Source: Chloroflexota bacterium (GTDB taxonomy: Bacteria; Chloroflexota; Limnocylindria; Limnocylindrales; CSP1-4). Taken from it: DNA of 35,391 nucleotides. The position numbers and the translations under genes are program-made. Below are positions 24,377-32,200 of this stretch, piece by piece; the stretch's first letter is position 1; the number at the start of each line of letters is the position of its first letter. The stretch lies in assembly GCA_012026785.1 (NCBI GenBank), contig VEOW01000252.1:1-35391 (forward strand), given 5' to 3'. Below the pieces are notes generated by a model, which saw nothing but the letters and a program-made list of their open reading frames with translations, did no database searches and was not told where the DNA came from.

Positions 24377-25291
24377 TCAGGACCCGCCAGCGGCCGCCGC
24401 CGTCTCGGCGAGGAACGTCCGGGCCGTCTGGCCACGGACCTGTCGAACGTCCTCCTCGTACTTGAGGACGACGCCGAGCGTCTCGTCGACGAGGTCGGGC
24501 GTCAGCTCCGCGGCACCGAGGGCCATCAGCGCCGCCGCCCAATCGAGGGTCTCGGCGATGCCGGGCACCTTCGTCAGCTCCGCCCGGCGCAGCCGATGGA
24601 CGAAGTCGACGACCTGGCGAGCCAGCTGGGCCGGCGCACCGGGGACCCGTGTCAGGACGATCTCGAGCTCCTTGGCCGCTGTCGGGAAATCGATCCAGTG
24701 GTACAGGCAGCGCCGCTTGAGCGCGTCGTGGACCTCGCGCGTCCGGTTGGAGGTCAGGATCACCCGCGGCTGGCGGTCGGCGCGGATCGTGCCGATCTCC
24801 GGCACGGTGCCCTGGAAATCCGAGAGGATCTCGAGCAGGTACGCCTCGAACTCCTCGTCGGCCCGGTCGATCTCGTCGATCAGCAGGACCGGCGCCACCC
24901 CGTCATTCGATTCGAGGGCCTGCAGCAGCGGGCGCTTGATCAGGAACTCCGGCCCGAAGATGTCGTGGGCGGTCGCTTGGGCGATCGCGCCGCGGGCCTC
25001 GAGGAGCCGGATCTCGAGCATCTGGCGCGGGTAGTTCCACTCGTAGACCGCCGTGTTGACGTCGAGGCCCTCGTAGCACTGGAGGCGGATGAGCGGCGCG
25101 TCCAGGGACGCGGCGAGGACCTTCGCCAGCTCGGTCTTGCCAACGCCGGCCTCGCCCTCGAGGAGCAGCGGGCGGCCAAGTCGCAGGCCCAGGAAGACCG
25201 CGGTCGCGAGCGAGCGGTCGGCGATGTAGCCGCGCTCGCGGAACGCCGCGACGATCGCGTCGGTGGAGTCGAGGGTGGGTGTCGTCGTCAC
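24377..25291 (-). CDS. coxD: MoxR-type AAA ATPase CoxD
   Basis: This 304-residue AAA+ ATPase has Walker A GEAGVGKT (46-53), YEWNYPRQML, Walker B PVLLIDEIDRADEEFEAYLL, sensor ILTSNRTREVHDALKRRC and arginine-rich C-terminal helices. It matches the CoxD branch of MoxR ATPases, which unfold or reshape the Mo enzyme so the cofactor can be completed. GTG 25291 is chosen because homology (DSTDAIVAAFRERGY) follows soon; the frame runs on to 25369 without family-like sequence. No good Shine-Dalgarno is visible. It is the first gene of the maturation operon, directly downstream of the inverted-element region. Confidence 0.88.
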   Translation of the reverse strand: MTTTPTLDSTDAIVAAFRERGYIADRSLATAVFLGLRLGRPLLLEGEAGVGKTELAKVLAASLDAPLIRLQCYEGLDVNTAVYEWNYPRQMLEIRLLEARGAIAQATAHDIFGPEFLIKRPLLQALESNDGVAPVLLIDEIDRADEEFEAYLLEILSDFQGTVPEIGTIRADRQPRVILTSNRTREVHDALKRRCLYHWIDFPTAAKELEIVLTRVPGAPAQLARQVVDFVHRLRRAELTKVPGIAETLDWAAALMALGAAELTPDLVDETLGVVLKYEEDVRQVRGQTARTFLAETAAAAGGS

Positions 25292-25360
25292 GCCGGGGAG
25301 TGTACGCGCCGCCTCCCGTTTGGGGCCGCGGCAGGCGCGGCCCGACAGCGTCACCTGTCG

Positions 25361-25506
25361 CTTACGCAAGAGCTGCGTGATATCTCGCCATTTGCATCGC
25401 CGCGCCTGTCTTCCAGCGCGTGTTCGTCCCGGGCCGCGTTCGGCTCGGGAAGAAGTCGCCCGGGAGCTCGGTTCACGTGGTGGATATCACGCGGTGGGCG
25501 CGTAAG
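25361..25506. repeat. Inverted pair of a bipartite 24-bp element
   Basis: CTTACGC-N7-GCGTGATATC at 25361-25384 has an inverted mate, GATATCACGC-N7-GCGTAAG, at 25483-25506. All 17 fixed positions and the 7-nt spacer length are identical, while the spacers differ (AAGAGCT versus GCCCACC when read in the same direction). The copies enclose 98 nt. They lie 70-215 nt upstream of coxD. This could be a pair of operator sites, or terminal repeats of a 146-bp MITE-like element; no target duplication is evident. Confidence 0.75.
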
Positions 25507-25536
25507 TGCCACCACTGGGCCGACGAGCGAGGGTTA

Positions 25537-25555
25537 CTACGCGCCCTCCGCGTAG
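25537..25555. repeat. 7-bp inverted repeat CTACGCG-CCCTC-CGCGTAG
   Basis: A perfect palindromic hairpin lies 30 nt beyond the second 24-bp element and 53 nt after the stop of the acidic ORF in its direction. It lacks a T-run. It could be a weak terminator for the acidic ORF or another binding site. The rest of 25292-25607 contains no gene. Confidence 0.5.
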
Positions 25556-25607
25556 GTGAGTTCCGCCCGAACGCGGGCACCGGCAGGTAGGCCCCGGGCG
25601 CTTGTCG

Positions 25608-25919
25608 CTAGCGAGTGCGACGCTCCAGCTCGCGCTCCTCGTCGTCGCCGCCCATCGGATCCGGCCACTCGGTGCCCGGCGGCGGCGCGACCACACCGGG
25701 GCCTCCGCCGCCCGTGCCCGCGGGGGCGACCACGGCCTCATCGTTGTCGAGGGGGCTGGTGTCCGGGTCGTCCTCGAGGTCACGCCGCGCCTCGTCGAGC
25801 GCCCCACGCTCCGGATGGCCGCCGGCGCCGGCGCCCGTCACGGCAGTGGTGTGCCCGGCCTCGTCCGGCCCTTCGAACTCCTCGCGCAATCCTGGGGACC
25901 GCTCACGTTCGTCTGTCAT
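25608..25919 (-). CDS. Small acidic, probably disordered hypothetical protein
   Basis: This ORF of 103 codons is rich in Glu, Asp, Gly and Pro (ALDEARRDLEDDPDTSPLDN, EWPDPMGGDDEERELERRTR) with no hydrophobic core or signal. Its composition suggests an intrinsically disordered protein. There is no Shine-Dalgarno before ATG 25919, so the start and even the gene are uncertain. I recognise no family. It is the last minus-strand gene before the inverted-element region. Confidence 0.45.
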   Translation of the reverse strand: MTDERERSPGLREEFEGPDEAGHTTAVTGAGAGGHPERGALDEARRDLEDDPDTSPLDNDEAVVAPAGTGGGGPGVVAPPPGTEWPDPMGGDDEERELERRTR

Positions 25920-26022
25920 GCCGCCAGCATTGACTGCGAGGTGCTCGAGCCTGCGGCGGCACGCCTACCCCGGCCGTTGCAGTTCGCTGACGATGTCCGC
26001 CTGCTGCGGCCGGCGCTTGCGG

Positions 26023-27272
26023 CTACTCAGGGGCCACGAGGACGTCGATGGTTCCGAATGGCCAACCCTGCATCGTCGTCCCGAGCGCGATCGGGTGTGA
26101 TTCACCGCTCCTGACGTCGATCGCGAGCGTTGCGTCCGTGGCCAGCCACGGGATGACGCAGAAGTAGCCGGGCGGGCACGGGACCGCGGCCGTGGCTGCA
26201 AGCAGCTCGGGGCCGAGCCAGACGGGTGCGACATAGCCGCTGGCCAGCTTTCGACTCGTCCCCTGCACACGATCGAAGACGTAGATGGACGGTGCTCCGC
26301 CGTCCCCGTCATCGAAGGCGATCATCTCGCCGGACGGCGACAGCGCGGGTCGATAGGCATCCGACGGCAGGTCGAACCGTCGGGCGTCGCCGGTTGTCGT
26401 CGAGATCGAGATCCAGTCCCAGGGCAGCGTCGTGTTATTGGGGTGCTTCTGAAACAGCACCCGTTGGTTCGATAGCCAGCGGCCGAACGTTCCCAACTGC
26501 GGCGGAACCACATCCCGACCATCCAGGTCGACGACGAGCACGGTGGGATACTCCAGCGTGTCGACGACGAGGACCTGGTCGACCGTCGGCGACCACGTCA
26601 CCACGACCTCGTCCCGCTGATTGCCGCCGCGCCCGATCCACGGTTCAAGTGATCGAAGGAGCCTGGCGGAGGCGGTCCGCGTGTCGAACAGGCACAGTGA
26701 GACCGGCATCTCTGTCGTCGCGGAATGGCCTTGCACGAGGTACGCGAGCCGGGTTCCATCGGGGCTCCAGTCGAAACCGAGCAGGCCGCTCGGTAGCCGG
26801 AGGATCTCCTCTGATCTCCCGCTTTCCAGGTCGAACTCCCAGAGCGAATCCTGTCCGAAGAGGTGCCCCTCATCGGGCAGCTCCCGTTGGCGGACGAACG
26901 ACACCAGCCCGGAAGTTCGAAACTGCGGCCTCATCCCGAGCCGCGTGGCCGCCGGGTCGAGGATGGAAACCGAGTCGGCCTCGACGTCGTAGAGTGACAG
27001 GCCGTCCGCGGTTGGGAAGACCGCCAGCGACTGCGTCAGCGATCCGTTGGGTGCCGTGGCTGCGACGGCCTGGCCGCAGTCCCCGATCGCGGTCTCGCTT
27101 GGTTCAGCCGACGGAAGGGCGGACTCAGTCGGCCTCGCCGAGGGCGGTGGCGCCGAGCTCGTTGCCGCGGGCATTGGGTCCGCTGCCGTCGCCTCGGCGG
27201 GTCGCTCGCGTCGGCGCCGCAGCCAGCGAGCATCAAGCCAACGACGACAGTGATCGCGAGCCGCCGCTTCAT
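26023..27272 (-). pseudogene. Beta-propeller (PD40/TolB-like) lipoprotein with apparent frameshift near 27200
   Basis: A clear lipoprotein signal (MKRRLAITVVVGLMLAGCGA, Cys18) starts at ATG 27272, but this frame soon becomes Arg-rich nonsense. One frame away (-1), from about 27201, the sequence continues as a typical Pro/Ser/Thr linker (ATAADPMPAATSSAPPPSAR). About 350 residues of beta-propeller follow, with blades such as FDWSPDGTRLAYLVQ and ALSPSGEMIAFDDGDG. The intact protein would be an anchored extracytoplasmic lipoprotein. The break is close to a CCC run. Possible causes are a real one-base loss, an assembly error or programmed -1 frameshifting. The main frame is otherwise open from 27399 but has no signal peptide. 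Confidence 0.7.
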
Positions 27273-27453
27273 GCCCACCCGGACGTCCCCGGGGTGCCAA
27301 TCGTGACGCAGAGGTTCGATGTTCAGCTTCAAGAGCGAACGGCCGAACCGTTCGTGACATCCGACGAACTCGCTCAATCTGATCAATGTCACTCGACACT
27401 GAGTTGTCGCTGGAGGGGATGGCGCCCGTAGGCCGCCGGTGCCTCGGCCTACC

Positions 27454-28713
27454 TCAACTCGGCACGACACAGCTGGCTTGCTCGTCATCCTCGGCCCCGA
27501 TGGCGTCCCGTTGCCCGAGCGCGATGAGCTCCGCGATGCAGATGACAGGGTCGAGCCGGAGGCGGTCGCGGACGGCGATGACATCGACGCCAGCGCCGAC
27601 CTGGAAGCGATACCAGCCGAGACCCTCGGGCGTCCCGAGCCCGACATAGTCGAGGACCTCCACACCATGCCGCGCGGCGAATTCCGCGAGATCGCTGTCA
27701 GTCGGTGGTGCCCTGAATCGAGCCATGACCTGGTCCCGGACGTAGCGGCCCTCCAGCTGCACCGCGGATGGCAGCGTGACCGACTCGGCGAGTTCGATGA
27801 ACTCGCGGCGGCTGAAGTCGTGGTCCCACCCGACGAGAGCGAACTCGCTATCGCCGTTGGCCCAGATCAGGACAAGCCCCGCGCCAAACGGGTATCGGTC
27901 GACCCACAACGTCGCCGGCCGACCATTGACCTCGACCACGGAGCGCTCGCCTCCTCCTTCGGTGTTGATCGGCCCGCCGAAGGACTGCGTCAACGTCAGG
28001 ATCGGATCGCCATCTGCCGGGTCGGGGTCGCGTACGGGCGACCAGACGCGCTGCCAGCGTGGGGTCGGGGTGCCCAGGACGTTGCCTTCACGTCGGAGGA
28101 TCCAGCCATCGGGTAGGCCCTCGACCTCGGCCAGCCAATGCGGGGCGCGGAGCCACAGCAGCTGCCCGTAAAGGTCCCGGACGACATCTCCGGCGAATGG
28201 TGCCTCGAGGATCAGGTCCATCGACCGATCGATGCCGACGCCGGCGCAGACGTAGCGGCCGGACGGATCGTCCCAGGGATGATCGCGCGCCGGGTCACGG
28301 TACTCGTAGATGCCGACCTCCAAGACCCCATCGACGTCGCGGGCGCTGCCTTCGTAGCCGTCGGCGCACGTGTCCGCGTCGTACTCGACGTGCAGGACCA
28401 TCCCGTCGCCGCTCAACGCCACGGCCCGGATCCTGGTGAGCTGCAGTCGGATCAGGCCGCCATCCTGCGTTTCGGATGGGCCTGCCGTTGCCGTCGCTGT
28501 CGCGGAGGCGGAGGGGTCGTTGCCCGTTGCGGGAGCCTCGGCCTTCGGTGGCGACAGGATTACGACCATCGCAATGGCCACCGTCGCCACGACGAGCGCC
28601 CCAAGGGGCGGGCTGACTCGGGAAGCAGTGCGACGGCGCATGGTGGGCGGCCGAACGCCACGGGTCAACTCGTCCCACGAGTCGAGGATCGAAGGCCGAC
28701 GACTGATGGTCAT
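27454..28713 (-). CDS. Single-pass membrane protein coupled to ECF sigma factor (candidate anti-sigma)
   Basis: This 419-residue protein has a basic N-terminal cytoplasmic part of about 35 residues (SILDSWDELTRGVRPP), one TM helix (36-54, LGALVVATVAIAMVVIL), a Ser/Thr/Ala linker, then about 350 extracytoplasmic residues without a recognised domain. Its ATG overlaps the sigma-factor stop (ATGA), the usual arrangement for sigma/anti-sigma pairs. No zinc-binding HxxxCxxC anti-sigma motif is present, so the function rests on position and topology. Several cysteines in the outer domain (DTCADGY, RYVCAGV, PVICIAE) could form disulfides. A 181-nt gap with no gene separates it from the next gene. Confidence 0.75.
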   Translation of the reverse strand: MTISRRPSILDSWDELTRGVRPPTMRRRTASRVSPPLGALVVATVAIAMVVILSPPKAEAPATGNDPSASATATATAGPSETQDGGLIRLQLTRIRAVALSGDGMVLHVEYDADTCADGYEGSARDVDGVLEVGIYEYRDPARDHPWDDPSGRYVCAGVGIDRSMDLILEAPFAGDVVRDLYGQLLWLRAPHWLAEVEGLPDGWILRREGNVLGTPTPRWQRVWSPVRDPDPADGDPILTLTQSFGGPINTEGGGERSVVEVNGRPATLWVDRYPFGAGLVLIWANGDSEFALVGWDHDFSRREFIELAESVTLPSAVQLEGRYVRDQVMARFRAPPTDSDLAEFAARHGVEVLDYVGLGTPEGLGWYRFQVGAGVDVIAVRDRLRLDPVICIAELIALGQRDAIGAEDDEQASCVVPS

Positions 28714-29201
28714 CGGTGGGCCTCGAGCTTGTCACGAGCGCGAGACACAGCCGCCCTGATCGCGCCCGGCGTCGTCCCCATGAGGTGCGCGGCGTCCGTC
28801 GAGTCACGGCCCTCGAGCGCGACGAGGAACAGGGCGCTCCGCTCCAGGGCGGAGAGCCGGCTCATGGCGCGTTGGACGTCCAGCCAGCGATCCGCCGTCG
28901 CCTCGTCGAGCGTCGCCGGTGGAGTGAACCGGAGCAGGCGGCGTCGAAGCATTCGAAACCGGTCGGTCAAGAGGTGCCTCGCGGTGACGAGCAGCCACGG
29001 GAGGACATCGCGGTCCCACTCGACGCTTGAGCGGTTCCGCCACAGCCGGGTGAATGTCTCCTGCGCCACGTCCTCTGCCGCTCCCCAGTCGTTCGTCCAG
29101 GCCAAGGCGAATCGAAAGACCGTTGGCCAGTGAGCCTCGTAAGCGCGCTCGTAGGCGGTCTCGAGCGGAACCACCGCGAGGCCTTCCAGGCTCACACCCA
29201 T
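28710..29201 (-). CDS. ECF-type RNA polymerase sigma factor
   Basis: This sigma-70 family factor of about 163 residues has region 2 (HWPTVFRFALAWTNDWGAAEDVAQETFTRLW) joined by a short linker to region 4 (LSALERSALFLVALEGRDSTDAAHLMGTTPGAIRAAVSRARDKL). Regions 1 and 3 are absent, as in ECF factors. ATG 29201 has GGGTGA about 8 nt upstream; GTG 29207 and later GTG codons are alternatives. The membrane protein downstream is probably its regulator, and the flanking lipoproteins are possible regulon members. The signal sensed is unknown. Confidence 0.9.
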   Translation of the reverse strand: MGVSLEGLAVVPLETAYERAYEAHWPTVFRFALAWTNDWGAAEDVAQETFTRLWRNRSSVEWDRDVLPWLLVTARHLLTDRFRMLRRRLLRFTPPATLDEATADRWLDVQRAMSRLSALERSALFLVALEGRDSTDAAHLMGTTPGAIRAAVSRARDKLEAHR

Positions 29202-29255
29202 GTACACGTCACCCGGCCTTGATGCGCACGGCGAGTTGGAGGCCGTGCGACGTAA

Positions 29256-30404
29256 TCATTCGACGTCGAGTGAGAAGACGGACACCCCGCTCCCAAGTGC
29301 ACAAGGCAACTCCCATCGGAATGACAGCGCTACCACGTACCGCCCATCCGCCGGGACTCGGAGACGGAGCGCGCCGGCTGCCGTGGTCGTGGCTTCCTCG
29401 TAGAAGAGCGGCTTGGGATAGTCCCCGCCGTTCAGAAGCTCGGTCACGTCGCGACGCCGGTAGAACTGCGCGACGATGTGATTGAGCAGGAAGCCGGTGC
29501 TCCCGATCGTGAGTCGGGCGTTCGTTCCCGCAGACCCTGAGACGGCGGGAGCGGTGCGCTGCCAGCTGTAGAGGGCTGGCCCATCTGCCGCGATGGCGCC
29601 AACCGAGAACCGCGAGACCTGATGGGTCAGCCGGAGCCGGATCGGAGTCCCGTTCACTTCTGCATCCGGCTGCCGTGCATCGACGTAGTCGAGGAACCCG
29701 CTGCCCTTCGGGCATGCCCGGGCCGTGGCGCTGCTGACGATCCAGAAGTCCGCGCCACCCGTCGCGGCGTACCCAAAGCATCGATCGACCCATTCGACCC
29801 GAAACTCGATGGTCGCCGGCCCGTCGACGTCCGGGATGCGCACCTTGGGAAACTCGTGCGACCCATCGGCAGAGGGCACGAAGCGGACGGCGAGGGGCCG
29901 TGGCCGCTGTCCGTCGAGCCGGAGGACGCCCGTGAGACCCAGGATGGTTGCGTATGGTTCGAAGCCAATGCCGTGGAGGTTGAGACCAAGCCCGACCTCG
30001 CCGCCGCCTACCAACACGCTGGCCCCGACGTTGAGCGATGTCGCGGGATGCCCTATCCATACGGAGTCCGGTTCGGCGAACGCCGCGGCACGCTCCACAC
30101 CGAGCCTCATCCGGATGTCCTCGCCGCCACCGGTCGTGTCCAGGGTGATGTCGGGCGGGACGTACGCCGCATCGAGCTTGGGGCAAGTCGCCTCCGTGGG
30201 TTCGGGCGTGGACACCGGTGTCGGCATCGTGGACCTGGGTCGGGGGCTGGGCGTGGCTGCCAAGGTCGGCTCGGCGCTCACGGTCGGAACGGACGAGGGA
30301 GGAACCGATGGGATCGGGGTCGCGTCGCAGCCGGCCAGGATCACGGCCATCGCGAGGATCGAGAGGTAGCGATGGCCGGGCGCTGGGCGCTGCCGACGCT
30401 TCAC
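29256..30404 (-). CDS. Lipoprotein of unknown function
   Basis: This 382-residue protein starts at GTG 30404 (no good Shine-Dalgarno). Its signal peptide ends in a lipobox, YLSILAMAVILAGC (Cys26), followed by a Pro/Ser/Thr-rich linker (to about residue 70). The mature part looks all-beta with several cysteines (EATCPKLD, DRCFGYA, RACPKGSG, LPCALGSG), and no known domain was recognised. It lies 54 nt upstream of the ECF sigma gene on the same strand, so it may be co-transcribed with or controlled by it. The linker style matches the frameshifted lipoprotein nearby. Confidence 0.75.
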   Translation of the reverse strand: MKRRQRPAPGHRYLSILAMAVILAGCDATPIPSVPPSSVPTVSAEPTLAATPSPRPRSTMPTPVSTPEPTEATCPKLDAAYVPPDITLDTTGGGEDIRMRLGVERAAAFAEPDSVWIGHPATSLNVGASVLVGGGEVGLGLNLHGIGFEPYATILGLTGVLRLDGQRPRPLAVRFVPSADGSHEFPKVRIPDVDGPATIEFRVEWVDRCFGYAATGGADFWIVSSATARACPKGSGFLDYVDARQPDAEVNGTPIRLRLTHQVSRFSVGAIAADGPALYSWQRTAPAVSGSAGTNARLTIGSTGFLLNHIVAQFYRRRDVTELLNGGDYPKPLFYEEATTTAAGALRLRVPADGRYVVALSFRWELPCALGSGVSVFSLDVE

Positions 30405-30427
30405 GCTCGTAGGACGTCGCGCCGCAT

Positions 30428-30482
30428 ACGCGTGTGGTGCCCGCTCACGTCACTCGCGGTTACGTCATGTGACCACACGCGT
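30428..30482. repeat. Perfect 11-bp inverted repeat between vapC and the lipoprotein gene
   Basis: ACGCGTGTGGT at 30428-30438 and ACCACACGCGT at 30472-30482 enclose 33 nt that include two ACGTCA direct repeats (30447, 30462). One arm is inside the last codons of vapC, the other 24 nt upstream of the lipoprotein GTG. It may be a terminator hairpin for vapBC or an operator. Confidence 0.6.
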
Positions 30483-30866
30483 TCGAACACCGAGGCGATC
30501 GTAGGTCGCGAGAGCGCGTCGATCCAACGTCAACAACGTGGCGTCGTGGTCGCGTGCCGTGACTCCGATCAGCCCGTCGTACGCGGCACCGCCGAAGATC
30601 TCCAGATTGGCCAGCTCGCCAATGAGCTCGAGCATCGATGTCCGGGGCTCCAGGCTCCGCTCGCCGAAGTTCTCGACCAACGAGGCGTGCACGATCATCG
30701 GCGATGATCGGAATGGGTTCGGGAGGCGGGTCAGGACCGAGTAGGCTTCGACGGCCGCGTGAGCGGGAAAATGCGGCTTCTCTCGCAGGGCGGCAGCAGC
30801 GGCGGCATGGCCTCCATGCCAGGTGCTGAATGCAGCGATGATGACGCTGCTGTCGACGGCGTTCAT
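30465..30866 (-). CDS. vapC: PIN-domain ribonuclease toxin (VapC family)
   Basis: This 133-residue PIN-domain protein has the acidic residues of the family spaced along the chain: NAVDSSVIIAAF (D5), HAAVEAYSVLTRLP, AAYDGLIGVTARDHDATLLTLDRRA. VapC toxins are RNases that cleave tRNA or rRNA and are held inactive by VapB. ATG 30866 overlaps the antitoxin stop (ATGA). The pair forms a complete module inside the block that separates the two halves of the cox locus. Confidence 0.88.
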   Translation of the reverse strand: MNAVDSSVIIAAFSTWHGGHAAAAAALREKPHFPAHAAVEAYSVLTRLPNPFRSSPMIVHASLVENFGERSLEPRTSMLELIGELANLEIFGGAAYDGLIGVTARDHDATLLTLDRRALATYDRLGVRTRVVT

Positions 30867-31108
30867 CGCCGAACGCGTTCTAAGGTCTCCCGCACGAGCT
30901 CCTGCGTCAGCGTCGGCATCGGCACATCCGTGACCGCCACCAGGATGCCGCCGCGATCCTCGAGCCGCATTGGCGTCGGGGGGACCTCGATCTCGATTCT
31001 CCCGTCGCGCGCCGCCACCTCGAGTTCCTGCCCCCCGTACAGGGCCAGCTCCTCGCGGATCGCCTTCGGAACGACGATCCGCCCGGCATTGTCGATGGTG
31101 GTTCGCAT
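30863..31108 (-). CDS. vapB: AbrB/MazE-type antitoxin (VapB family)
   Basis: This 81-residue protein has an N-terminal SpoVT-AbrB DNA-binding fold (MRTTIDNAGRIVVPKAIREE, then LYGGQELEVAARDGRIEIEV) and a C-terminal part that should bind VapC. It probably represses its own promoter. The short gap to the upstream MoCF gene contains repeated CTACCAYCAT half-sites consistent with that. ATG 31108 has no strong ribosome binding site. Confidence 0.87.
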   Translation of the reverse strand: MRTTIDNAGRIVVPKAIREELALYGGQELEVAARDGRIEIEVPPTPMRLEDRGGILVAVTDVPMPTLTQELVRETLERVRR

Positions 31109-31139
31109 GGCAGAATTCTACCATCATGCCTACCACCAT
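31095..31139. promoter_or_regulatory. Candidate VapB operator: spaced repeats
   Basis: CTACCATCAT (31118-31127) and CTACCACCAT (31130-31139) are direct repeats 12 nt apart, about one helical turn. ATGGTGGT (31095-31102), an inverted half-site, overlaps the vapB start. A GAATTC lies between. Autorepression by the AbrB-type antitoxin is the likely use (inference). Confidence 0.45.
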
Positions 31140-31147
31140 CCTTGCCT

Positions 31148-32200
31148 CTATCCCTCGGGTGCCTCGAGGGAGCGAGCGTAGGCGGGGAAGCGGAAGCGCT
31201 GGTGGCGGTTGAGGATGCCGCCGTGGCCGAGCTTGGCGACGGTGCCGGCCGAGGCGGGTTGGCCGGCGACGAGACGCGGCAGCAGGAGGTCGGCGGCGGT
31301 TGCCTTCGAATAGGCACCGCACGAGGGCAGGCCCACCACCGCTGTTCGCCCGATGGTGGCCAGCCAGCCCATCGAACCGGGGTGCGCCGGGACGCCGTGG
31401 CGGATGAACCGACCGCCGAGGGCCTCGACGGCAACGAAGAACGGGTCGGCCGGGTCAGTCGTACCGCCGCCGGCGGTCAGGACGATCGCGGCGCGCCGAC
31501 GACCGGTCGTGAGGTCGCGCAGGGCCGCGGTAACCGCGTCGGCCGAATCGGGCAGGTACTGGATCGAGAGGAGCCTCGCGCCGAGGCCCTCGATCTTGTC
31601 GCGGACCGCGGTCTCGAACCGCTCGCGGGCGGTCCCCGAGATCGACTCTCGAACGAGGACGGCGATCGGCAAGTCCCGCCGAAACGGCCGGACCCGGACG
31701 ATGCGATTCGCACGCCGTGCCAGCGCCTCGCCGGCAGCGACGATGGATTCCGGCACGAGGTGCGGCCCGACCTTGACGCTCGCCACCAGGTCGCCCGGGG
31801 CGACCGTCTGGCCGTCGAAGACGGTGAAGACCTCGAGCGGATCGAGTCGGTTGAGCCGCTCGAGGTCGCGCAGCGAGATCTCGACGACCCCGGGGACGGC
31901 CGCCACGAGATCAACCCGCGATTCGGAAGGCCCGCGGAGGGTGGTGCCCGGATCGTCTCGTCGAATCGCGGCGGCCAGTCGGAGCGCCGCCTCGTCCTCG
32001 TGGATCTCGCCTGGCTCGGCGAGGAGCACGGAGACGGCGCGGTCCGCCGGCGGCTCGGCCGCCAGGGCGGCGAGGTCGGCGGCCGAGAGCCGCCGACCCT
32101 TCGACCAGCGCGACCCGGCGACCTTCAGATCCCGGGCCAGGACGCCACCCTCGAGGCCCGGCGGCACCTCGCCGCCGGGCCGAATTCGAACGACCTTCAG
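31148..32200 (-). CDS. MoCF/molybdopterin-binding domain protein, apparent CTG start
   Basis: This protein of about 350 residues has a MoeA/MogA-like molybdopterin-binding region with AIVLTAGGGTTDPADPFF near residues 245-265 and a preceding half with LNRLDPLEVFTVFDGQTVAPGDLVASVKVGPHLV. Such proteins accompany cox and xdh genes and probably handle the Mo cofactor. The sequence KVVRIRPGGEVPPGLEGGVLA, typical of the family's beginning, follows CTG 32200, which overlaps the coxM-like stop (CTGA) and has GAGG 5 nt upstream. The first conventional start is GTG 32167, which would cut off 11 residues. The gene is followed by vapB after 39 nt. Confidence 0.82.
   Translation of the reverse strand: MKVVRIRPGGEVPPGLEGGVLARDLKVAGSRWSKGRRLSAADLAALAAEPPADRAVSVLLAEPGEIHEDEAALRLAAAIRRDDPGTTLRGPSESRVDLVAAVPGVVEISLRDLERLNRLDPLEVFTVFDGQTVAPGDLVASVKVGPHLVPESIVAAGEALARRANRIVRVRPFRRDLPIAVLVRESISGTARERFETAVRDKIEGLGARLLSIQYLPDSADAVTAALRDLTTGRRRAAIVLTAGGGTTDPADPFFVAVEALGGRFIRHGVPAHPGSMGWLATIGRTAVVGLPSCGAYSKATAADLLLPRLVAGQPASAGTVAKLGHGGILNRHQRFRFPAYARSLEAPEG

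Follow-up and report, generated by a model that had tools for sequence, protein, structure and literature searches.

A dispersed palindromic repeat in a Chloroflexota genome is linked to a family of predicted XRE–PD-(D/E)XK nuclease genes that may spread it

The window, by which we mean the whole 35,391-nucleotide stretch of Chloroflexota DNA analysed here, carries a palindromic repeat element beside genes for a CoxD-like AAA ATPase and CoxE. An initial annotation had placed the site next to cox genes and had described two mirrored copies of the motif CTTACGC-N7-GCGTGATATC; both observations hold, with exact matches (0 mismatches) at 25361–25384 (plus strand) and 25483–25506 (minus strand). 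Across 100 dinucleotide shuffles, the mean number of matches (≤3 mismatches) is 0.04, and no shuffle contains two. The mirrored motifs are part of a larger arrangement, for which that annotation missed a third, diverged unit (25533–25560) and the conserved outer ends GGTGA/TCACC. Scored against the frame GATANSAC-N11-GTAGGTGAC, the features are as follows.

24380–25291, minus strand: CoxD-like AAA ATPase gene, flanking context outside the element
25357–25560, no strand assigned: whole palindromic repeat element (~200 bp), one unit inverted relative to two tandem units
25357–25384, minus strand: unit 1, GATATCAC-GCAGCTCTTGC-GTAAGCGAC, two mismatches to the frame
25385–25482, no strand assigned: central segment, containing CGAGCGTGG and a GATTGTCAGCCGGCG stretch in better-preserved copies, degenerate in the window copy
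25483–25510, plus strand: unit 2, GATATCAC-GCGGTGGGCGC-GTAAGTGCC, inverted relative to unit 1, two mismatches to the frame
25533–25560, plus strand: unit 3, GTTACTAC-GCGCCCTCCGC-GTAGGTGAG, tandem to unit 2 with a 50-bp period, three mismatches to the frame

This is the only cluster of units in the window, and an Rfam search with the element returned zero family matches. The source genome (G000) is a Limnocylindria-like Chloroflexota metagenome-assembled genome (3.77 Mb, 260 contigs, 89% complete), throughout which the motif recurs: a genome-wide search at ≤3 mismatches gives 15 + 15 matches, versus 2 + 0 for the reversed control. Searching with the core pattern extends this to at least 53 units in 19 clusters, each built from one or more units facing one way, a centre and one or more inverted units (2–4 units, ~200 bp in all), with tandem units mostly at a 50-bp period. 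Pairs of clusters reach 83% identity over ~209 bp, in both relative orientations. Aligning the window element with 14 other clusters shows that, besides the units, the centre (CGAGCGTGG) and a TGACAATCGGTGGATACGACGC arm are conserved. The profile of the 53 units from 19 loci is sharp (GATA-NN-ACGC-R-N5-Y-GCGTAGGTGA); the spacer interior and the linkers lie near background and the spacer flanks are strongly conserved, in agreement with the annotated view that selection acts on the fixed bases and not on the spacer. That the window motif is part of a dispersed, non-coding repeat family is close to certain.

The clusters are intergenic, lying between about 19 unrelated gene pairs. Congeners lack them: none of 14 same-genus genomes matches a pattern specifying 22 bases, some of these genomes do carry coxD, and their DNA match to the window stops at coxD. 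The initial annotation had offered a looping operator for coxD, a reading prompted by the location just upstream of that gene and one that anticipated conservation in close relatives. With like clusters at so many unrelated loci, coxD-bearing congeners devoid of the repeat and no congener having the element conserved upstream of coxD, we regard this as extremely unlikely; coxD control by the window repeat finds no support. The repeat marks the coxD-proximal edge of a ~6-kb block: in other Limnocylindria-like genomes, the next cox-linked gene lies a few hundred base pairs from coxD, compared with ~6 kb here, occupied by a same-strand ORF block (25611–31108) and including a PIN-domain ORF (30465–31322).

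The annotation's other suggestion, the two ends of a 146-bp MITE, was close in kind and wrong in extent (~200 bp, 2–4 units), and the target duplications and empty sites expected of it did not emerge. Flanks of the clusters share a mean k-mer of 3.9, versus 4.0 for shuffled flanks (p = 0.81). No exact empty site could be read in congeners at the window or at contig C142; coxD and the right-hand gene of C142 are both present there without the repeat, and the insertion joints are unreadable because the other flank is not syntenic.

Inverted repeats can also act as RNA, and transcribed hairpins serving as bidirectional terminators or stabilizers would suit intergenic elements, 5 of 19 of which lie between convergent genes. 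Folding is better than in shuffles (z = −5.9 for the L014 copy; z = −3.3 for the window element), although good folding is expected of any inverted repeat. Flanking-gene orientations are mixed—six (−|−), five convergent, two divergent and two (+|+), the remaining clusters having no called gene on one side under crude, codon-based gene calls—and neither spacer complementarity nor the Rfam search favours an RNA, making this explanation very unlikely. One specific version, a hairpin RNA with a covarying 7-nt loop, was ruled out: loop complementarity is not kept in the source genome.

Beyond the genus, the distribution is patchy. An architecture pattern (unit, 82–112 bp, inverted unit) occurs in 4 of 177 class genomes, representing four genera (G000, G043, G054 and G094), with zero control matches; the three other genera have their own versions of the repeat in the architecture of the source genome. 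All versions share the 28-bp frame, whose N11 portion is palindromic and family-specific: GC-N7-GC in the source genome, G043 and G054, GAACCnGGTTC in G001 and G014, GATCCGGGATC in G008, and others elsewhere. The strict frame (≤1 mismatch) is found at 52 places in 16 of the 177 class genomes, with reversed-pattern controls at zero everywhere. Spans of paired inverted units fall into two groups, 126–131 and 137–140 bp, separated by about one helical turn; shared ancestry of sub-families could also produce two such groups.

A frame strongly conserved relative to its linkers, paired units at two preferred inverted spacings and intergenic positions are what protein-binding sites would look like. 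The units might accordingly be sites for an XRE-nuclease of the kind described below (acting in regulation, genome defence or self-protection) or for a chromosome-organizing protein, spread by ordinary duplication or recombination, with no mobilization by the nuclease. Against this, homology spans the whole ~209-bp element with copies in both orientations, and absence from all congeners would be odd for a housekeeping site. We judge this alternative unlikely, if the most serious of those considered.

The repeats lead to a particular gene. In G043, one element (L154) is adjoined by a 266-residue ORF with an XRE helix-turn-helix (HTH), and in G054, of another genus, an element is adjoined by a protein 54% identical to it. 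A dispersed G043 element (L158), 90% identical to that of L154 over 182 bp, retains the last 22 codons of the L154 gene. The gene belongs to a family, which we term XRE-nuclease, that is present in 97 of 107 family genomes at 1–13 copies each. Examining the 3′ flanks of 30 copies, we found many to have paired or tandem palindromes on the GATANSAC-N11-GTAGGTGAC frame. Of 27 strict-frame loci inspected outside the source genome, 7 are found where a family gene has its 3′ end; we estimate that such 3′ windows occupy roughly 0.2% of a genome. In several genera the first unit of these gene-adjacent arrays is inverted and either overlaps the last codons or comes immediately after them, with later units ~90–170 bp on, in 50-bp steps where tandem. 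A motif-free test agrees: across 36 loci, the downstream side of the gene carries stronger inverted repeats than the upstream side (Wilcoxon p = 0.0013), and 14 of these loci exceed all shuffles.

The source-genome elements themselves connect to these arrays. Their nucleotide profile matches, at E = 3e-9, the array directly 3′ of gene L193 (G023, genus g10); reversed target sequences give zero matches. A GTCAGCCGGCG stretch follows the unit in source-genome elements and, by eye, recurs at the corresponding position in gene L178; this shared stretch suggests a descent of the elements from the 3′ ends of genes. Most XRE-nuclease gene copies have no strict frame nearby. Comparing N11 between gene-adjacent and dispersed units, the true pairing ranks best only by tie (2 of 24 permutations, hand-collected units). 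In the HTH recognition helix, a leucine follows VS in 7 of 7 'GA...TC' genes versus 1 of 7 others, a post hoc comparison uncorrected for phylogeny, to which we give no weight. Overall, we consider it well supported that the repeat family belongs with the XRE-nuclease genes.

Arrays behind other family genes vary further. At L190 (G015:C96), several tandem GCACCGCCCCCGGCGGTGC palindromes, with yet another N11, recur at ~50-bp steps some 100–330 bp after the gene; at L181 (G059:C68) and L182 (G048:C43), the steps are 70 bp and about 98–99 bp, not 50. Searches for XRE-nuclease in plasmids, phages and IMG/VR gave zero matches.

A standard MITE dependent on a DDE transposase or another of the classical types, with XRE-nuclease genes merely attracting or carrying it, would share the inverted terminal units, dispersal and patchy distribution seen here. 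Target-site duplication does not rise above shuffled pairings, however, the XRE-nuclease gene is the only one seen bounded by units, and the placement of arrays at or over its last codons repeats across genera. We therefore hold this origin to be quite improbable, albeit less so than the RNA reading.

The partner protein is predicted to fuse an XRE-type HTH to a PD-(D/E)XK nuclease domain. Its AlphaFold2 model (mean pLDDT 90) shows a helical HTH domain at the N terminus, followed by an α-β3-α-β core (H71–94, E98–104, E113–120, E125–131, H138–160 and E166–174). Residues E102, D115, E130 and K132 are invariant in 36 aligned family members and supply the superfamily signature, E ... D ... (D/E)-x-K within an α-β-β-β-α-β core. 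Among solved structures, HipB and C.BclI are closest to the HTH domain. Beyond the HTH, fold matches are weak: the best for the nuclease domain is the R2 restriction-like endonuclease (Foldseek E 1.2e-3, TM 0.37), and a profile search also touches the Upx/restriction endonuclease 9wuf over residues 86–132. The protein is a predicted nuclease of the PD-(D/E)XK superfamily.

Within the source-genome assembly there are six family members, none of the six with this repeat type alongside. Repeats appear to break this assembly. The ends of contigs C204 (L014) and C215 (L308) overlap by exactly 99 bp, running into an element, as would be expected of assembly-graph neighbours. On C204 the element lies directly upstream of pdhC, and contig C41 terminates 10 bp past pdhB. 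Among pdhB–pdhC homologues of other genomes (L278–L303), an XRE-nuclease gene in the interval is polymorphic in presence and orientation: it faces one way in G043, G014, G005 and G117, the opposite way in G007, G008, G011, G010, G012 and G018, and is absent from G003, G020, G021, G023, G009 and G015. The interval is a hot spot for this gene in several genera; where gene-free, it is filled by apparent small ORFs, by eye, at L280 (G009), L290 (G003) and L294 (G015). It is possible that the cognate gene of the source genome is hidden in such an assembly gap.

Taking together the repeat family with its frame, architecture and patchy distribution, the gene-family link and the predicted nuclease fold, we lean towards spread in trans by the XRE-HTH/PD-(D/E)XK nuclease, the dispersed elements being gene-less copies of the 3′ array. 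The window element would be the palindromic array of a gene 3′ end without the gene body. Recognition of the N11 palindrome within its frame would fall to the HTH domain, probably acting as a dimer; inverted units ~110–125 bp apart would become paired, and the nuclease domain would cut at the units. Gene-less copies could then reach intergenic sites through mobilization in trans, as is thought for RAYTs and REPINs, and the source genome would once have had, or would still have, the cognate gene. Binding, cutting, mobilization in trans and this cognate gene are what we infer from sequence. A protein that moves the repeat would be the simplest reading, but no duplication or exact joint was found, nor a cognate gene in this assembly. 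More tentatively, and with somewhat less than even confidence, we propose that the system may represent a new class of bacterial mobile repeats, in which families that each have their own N11 palindrome in the common 28-bp frame are recognized and spread in trans by a multi-copy, non-HUH XRE-nuclease throughout one Chloroflexota family.

Known REP-type repeats with an assigned partner all rely on one class of enzyme, HUH Y1, and many REPs have no known mobilizer (PMC3733652). If the proposed role holds, palindromes located where a restriction-like nuclease gene ends would constitute a second, unrelated route for palindrome spread. The system would also supply a defined protein–DNA pair for testing and account for a large set of paralogous genes labelled in databases just as 'HTH domain'; this undescribed nuclease family may copy the repeat around the genome.

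Among open-licence papers, we found no account of such a repeat–nuclease system. MITEs and modular repeats such as BOX and ERIC are non-coding, dispersed and modular with inverted ends, as is the repeat here, but no target duplication was found for the latter and its linked gene encodes a nuclease, not a classical transposase. Restriction-modification C proteins (C.BclI) and HipB-type antitoxins are stand-alone regulators, unlike the present fusion of HTH and nuclease, whose sites lie 3′ of the gene. The likeness to the R2 retrotransposon is confined to the endonuclease fold and is weak (TM 0.37), with no reverse transcriptase here.

The nearest comparison is with REP/REPIN repeats, whose partners, the RAYTs (TnpA-REP), are HUH/Y1 enzymes; both systems comprise short palindromes, arranged as inverted pairs or in tandem, that are intergenic, dispersed and lineage-specific (PMC3116915, PMC2817692, PMC8266576). 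In each, a partner gene stands beside matching palindromes whose type varies by family, and the mechanism proposed here would be comparable to that of a REPIN/RAYT pair. A RAYT/Y1 transposase was nonetheless ruled out as partner: Y1_Tnp (PF01797) is found in 0 of 107 family genomes, compared with 5 of 14 control genomes. Whereas a RAYT is an HUH enzyme, the partner here joins an XRE HTH to PD-(D/E)XK, with the array seen where the gene ends on its 3′ side. The shared frame does not clearly resemble a hairpin tagged 5′ with GTAG; GTAGGTGAC is conserved, yet lies 3′ of the palindrome in frame orientation. CGTC-tagged REPs form palindromic dimers without a known dedicated transposase, and Chloroflexi is not among the phyla listed for them (PMC3733652); neither their unpaired terminal CGTC tag nor their CCA tail is a conserved feature of our unit profile. 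The repeat is not a REPIN/RAYT member, because the defining enzyme is absent, and is best read as a REPIN-like non-autonomous element served by a non-HUH enzyme.
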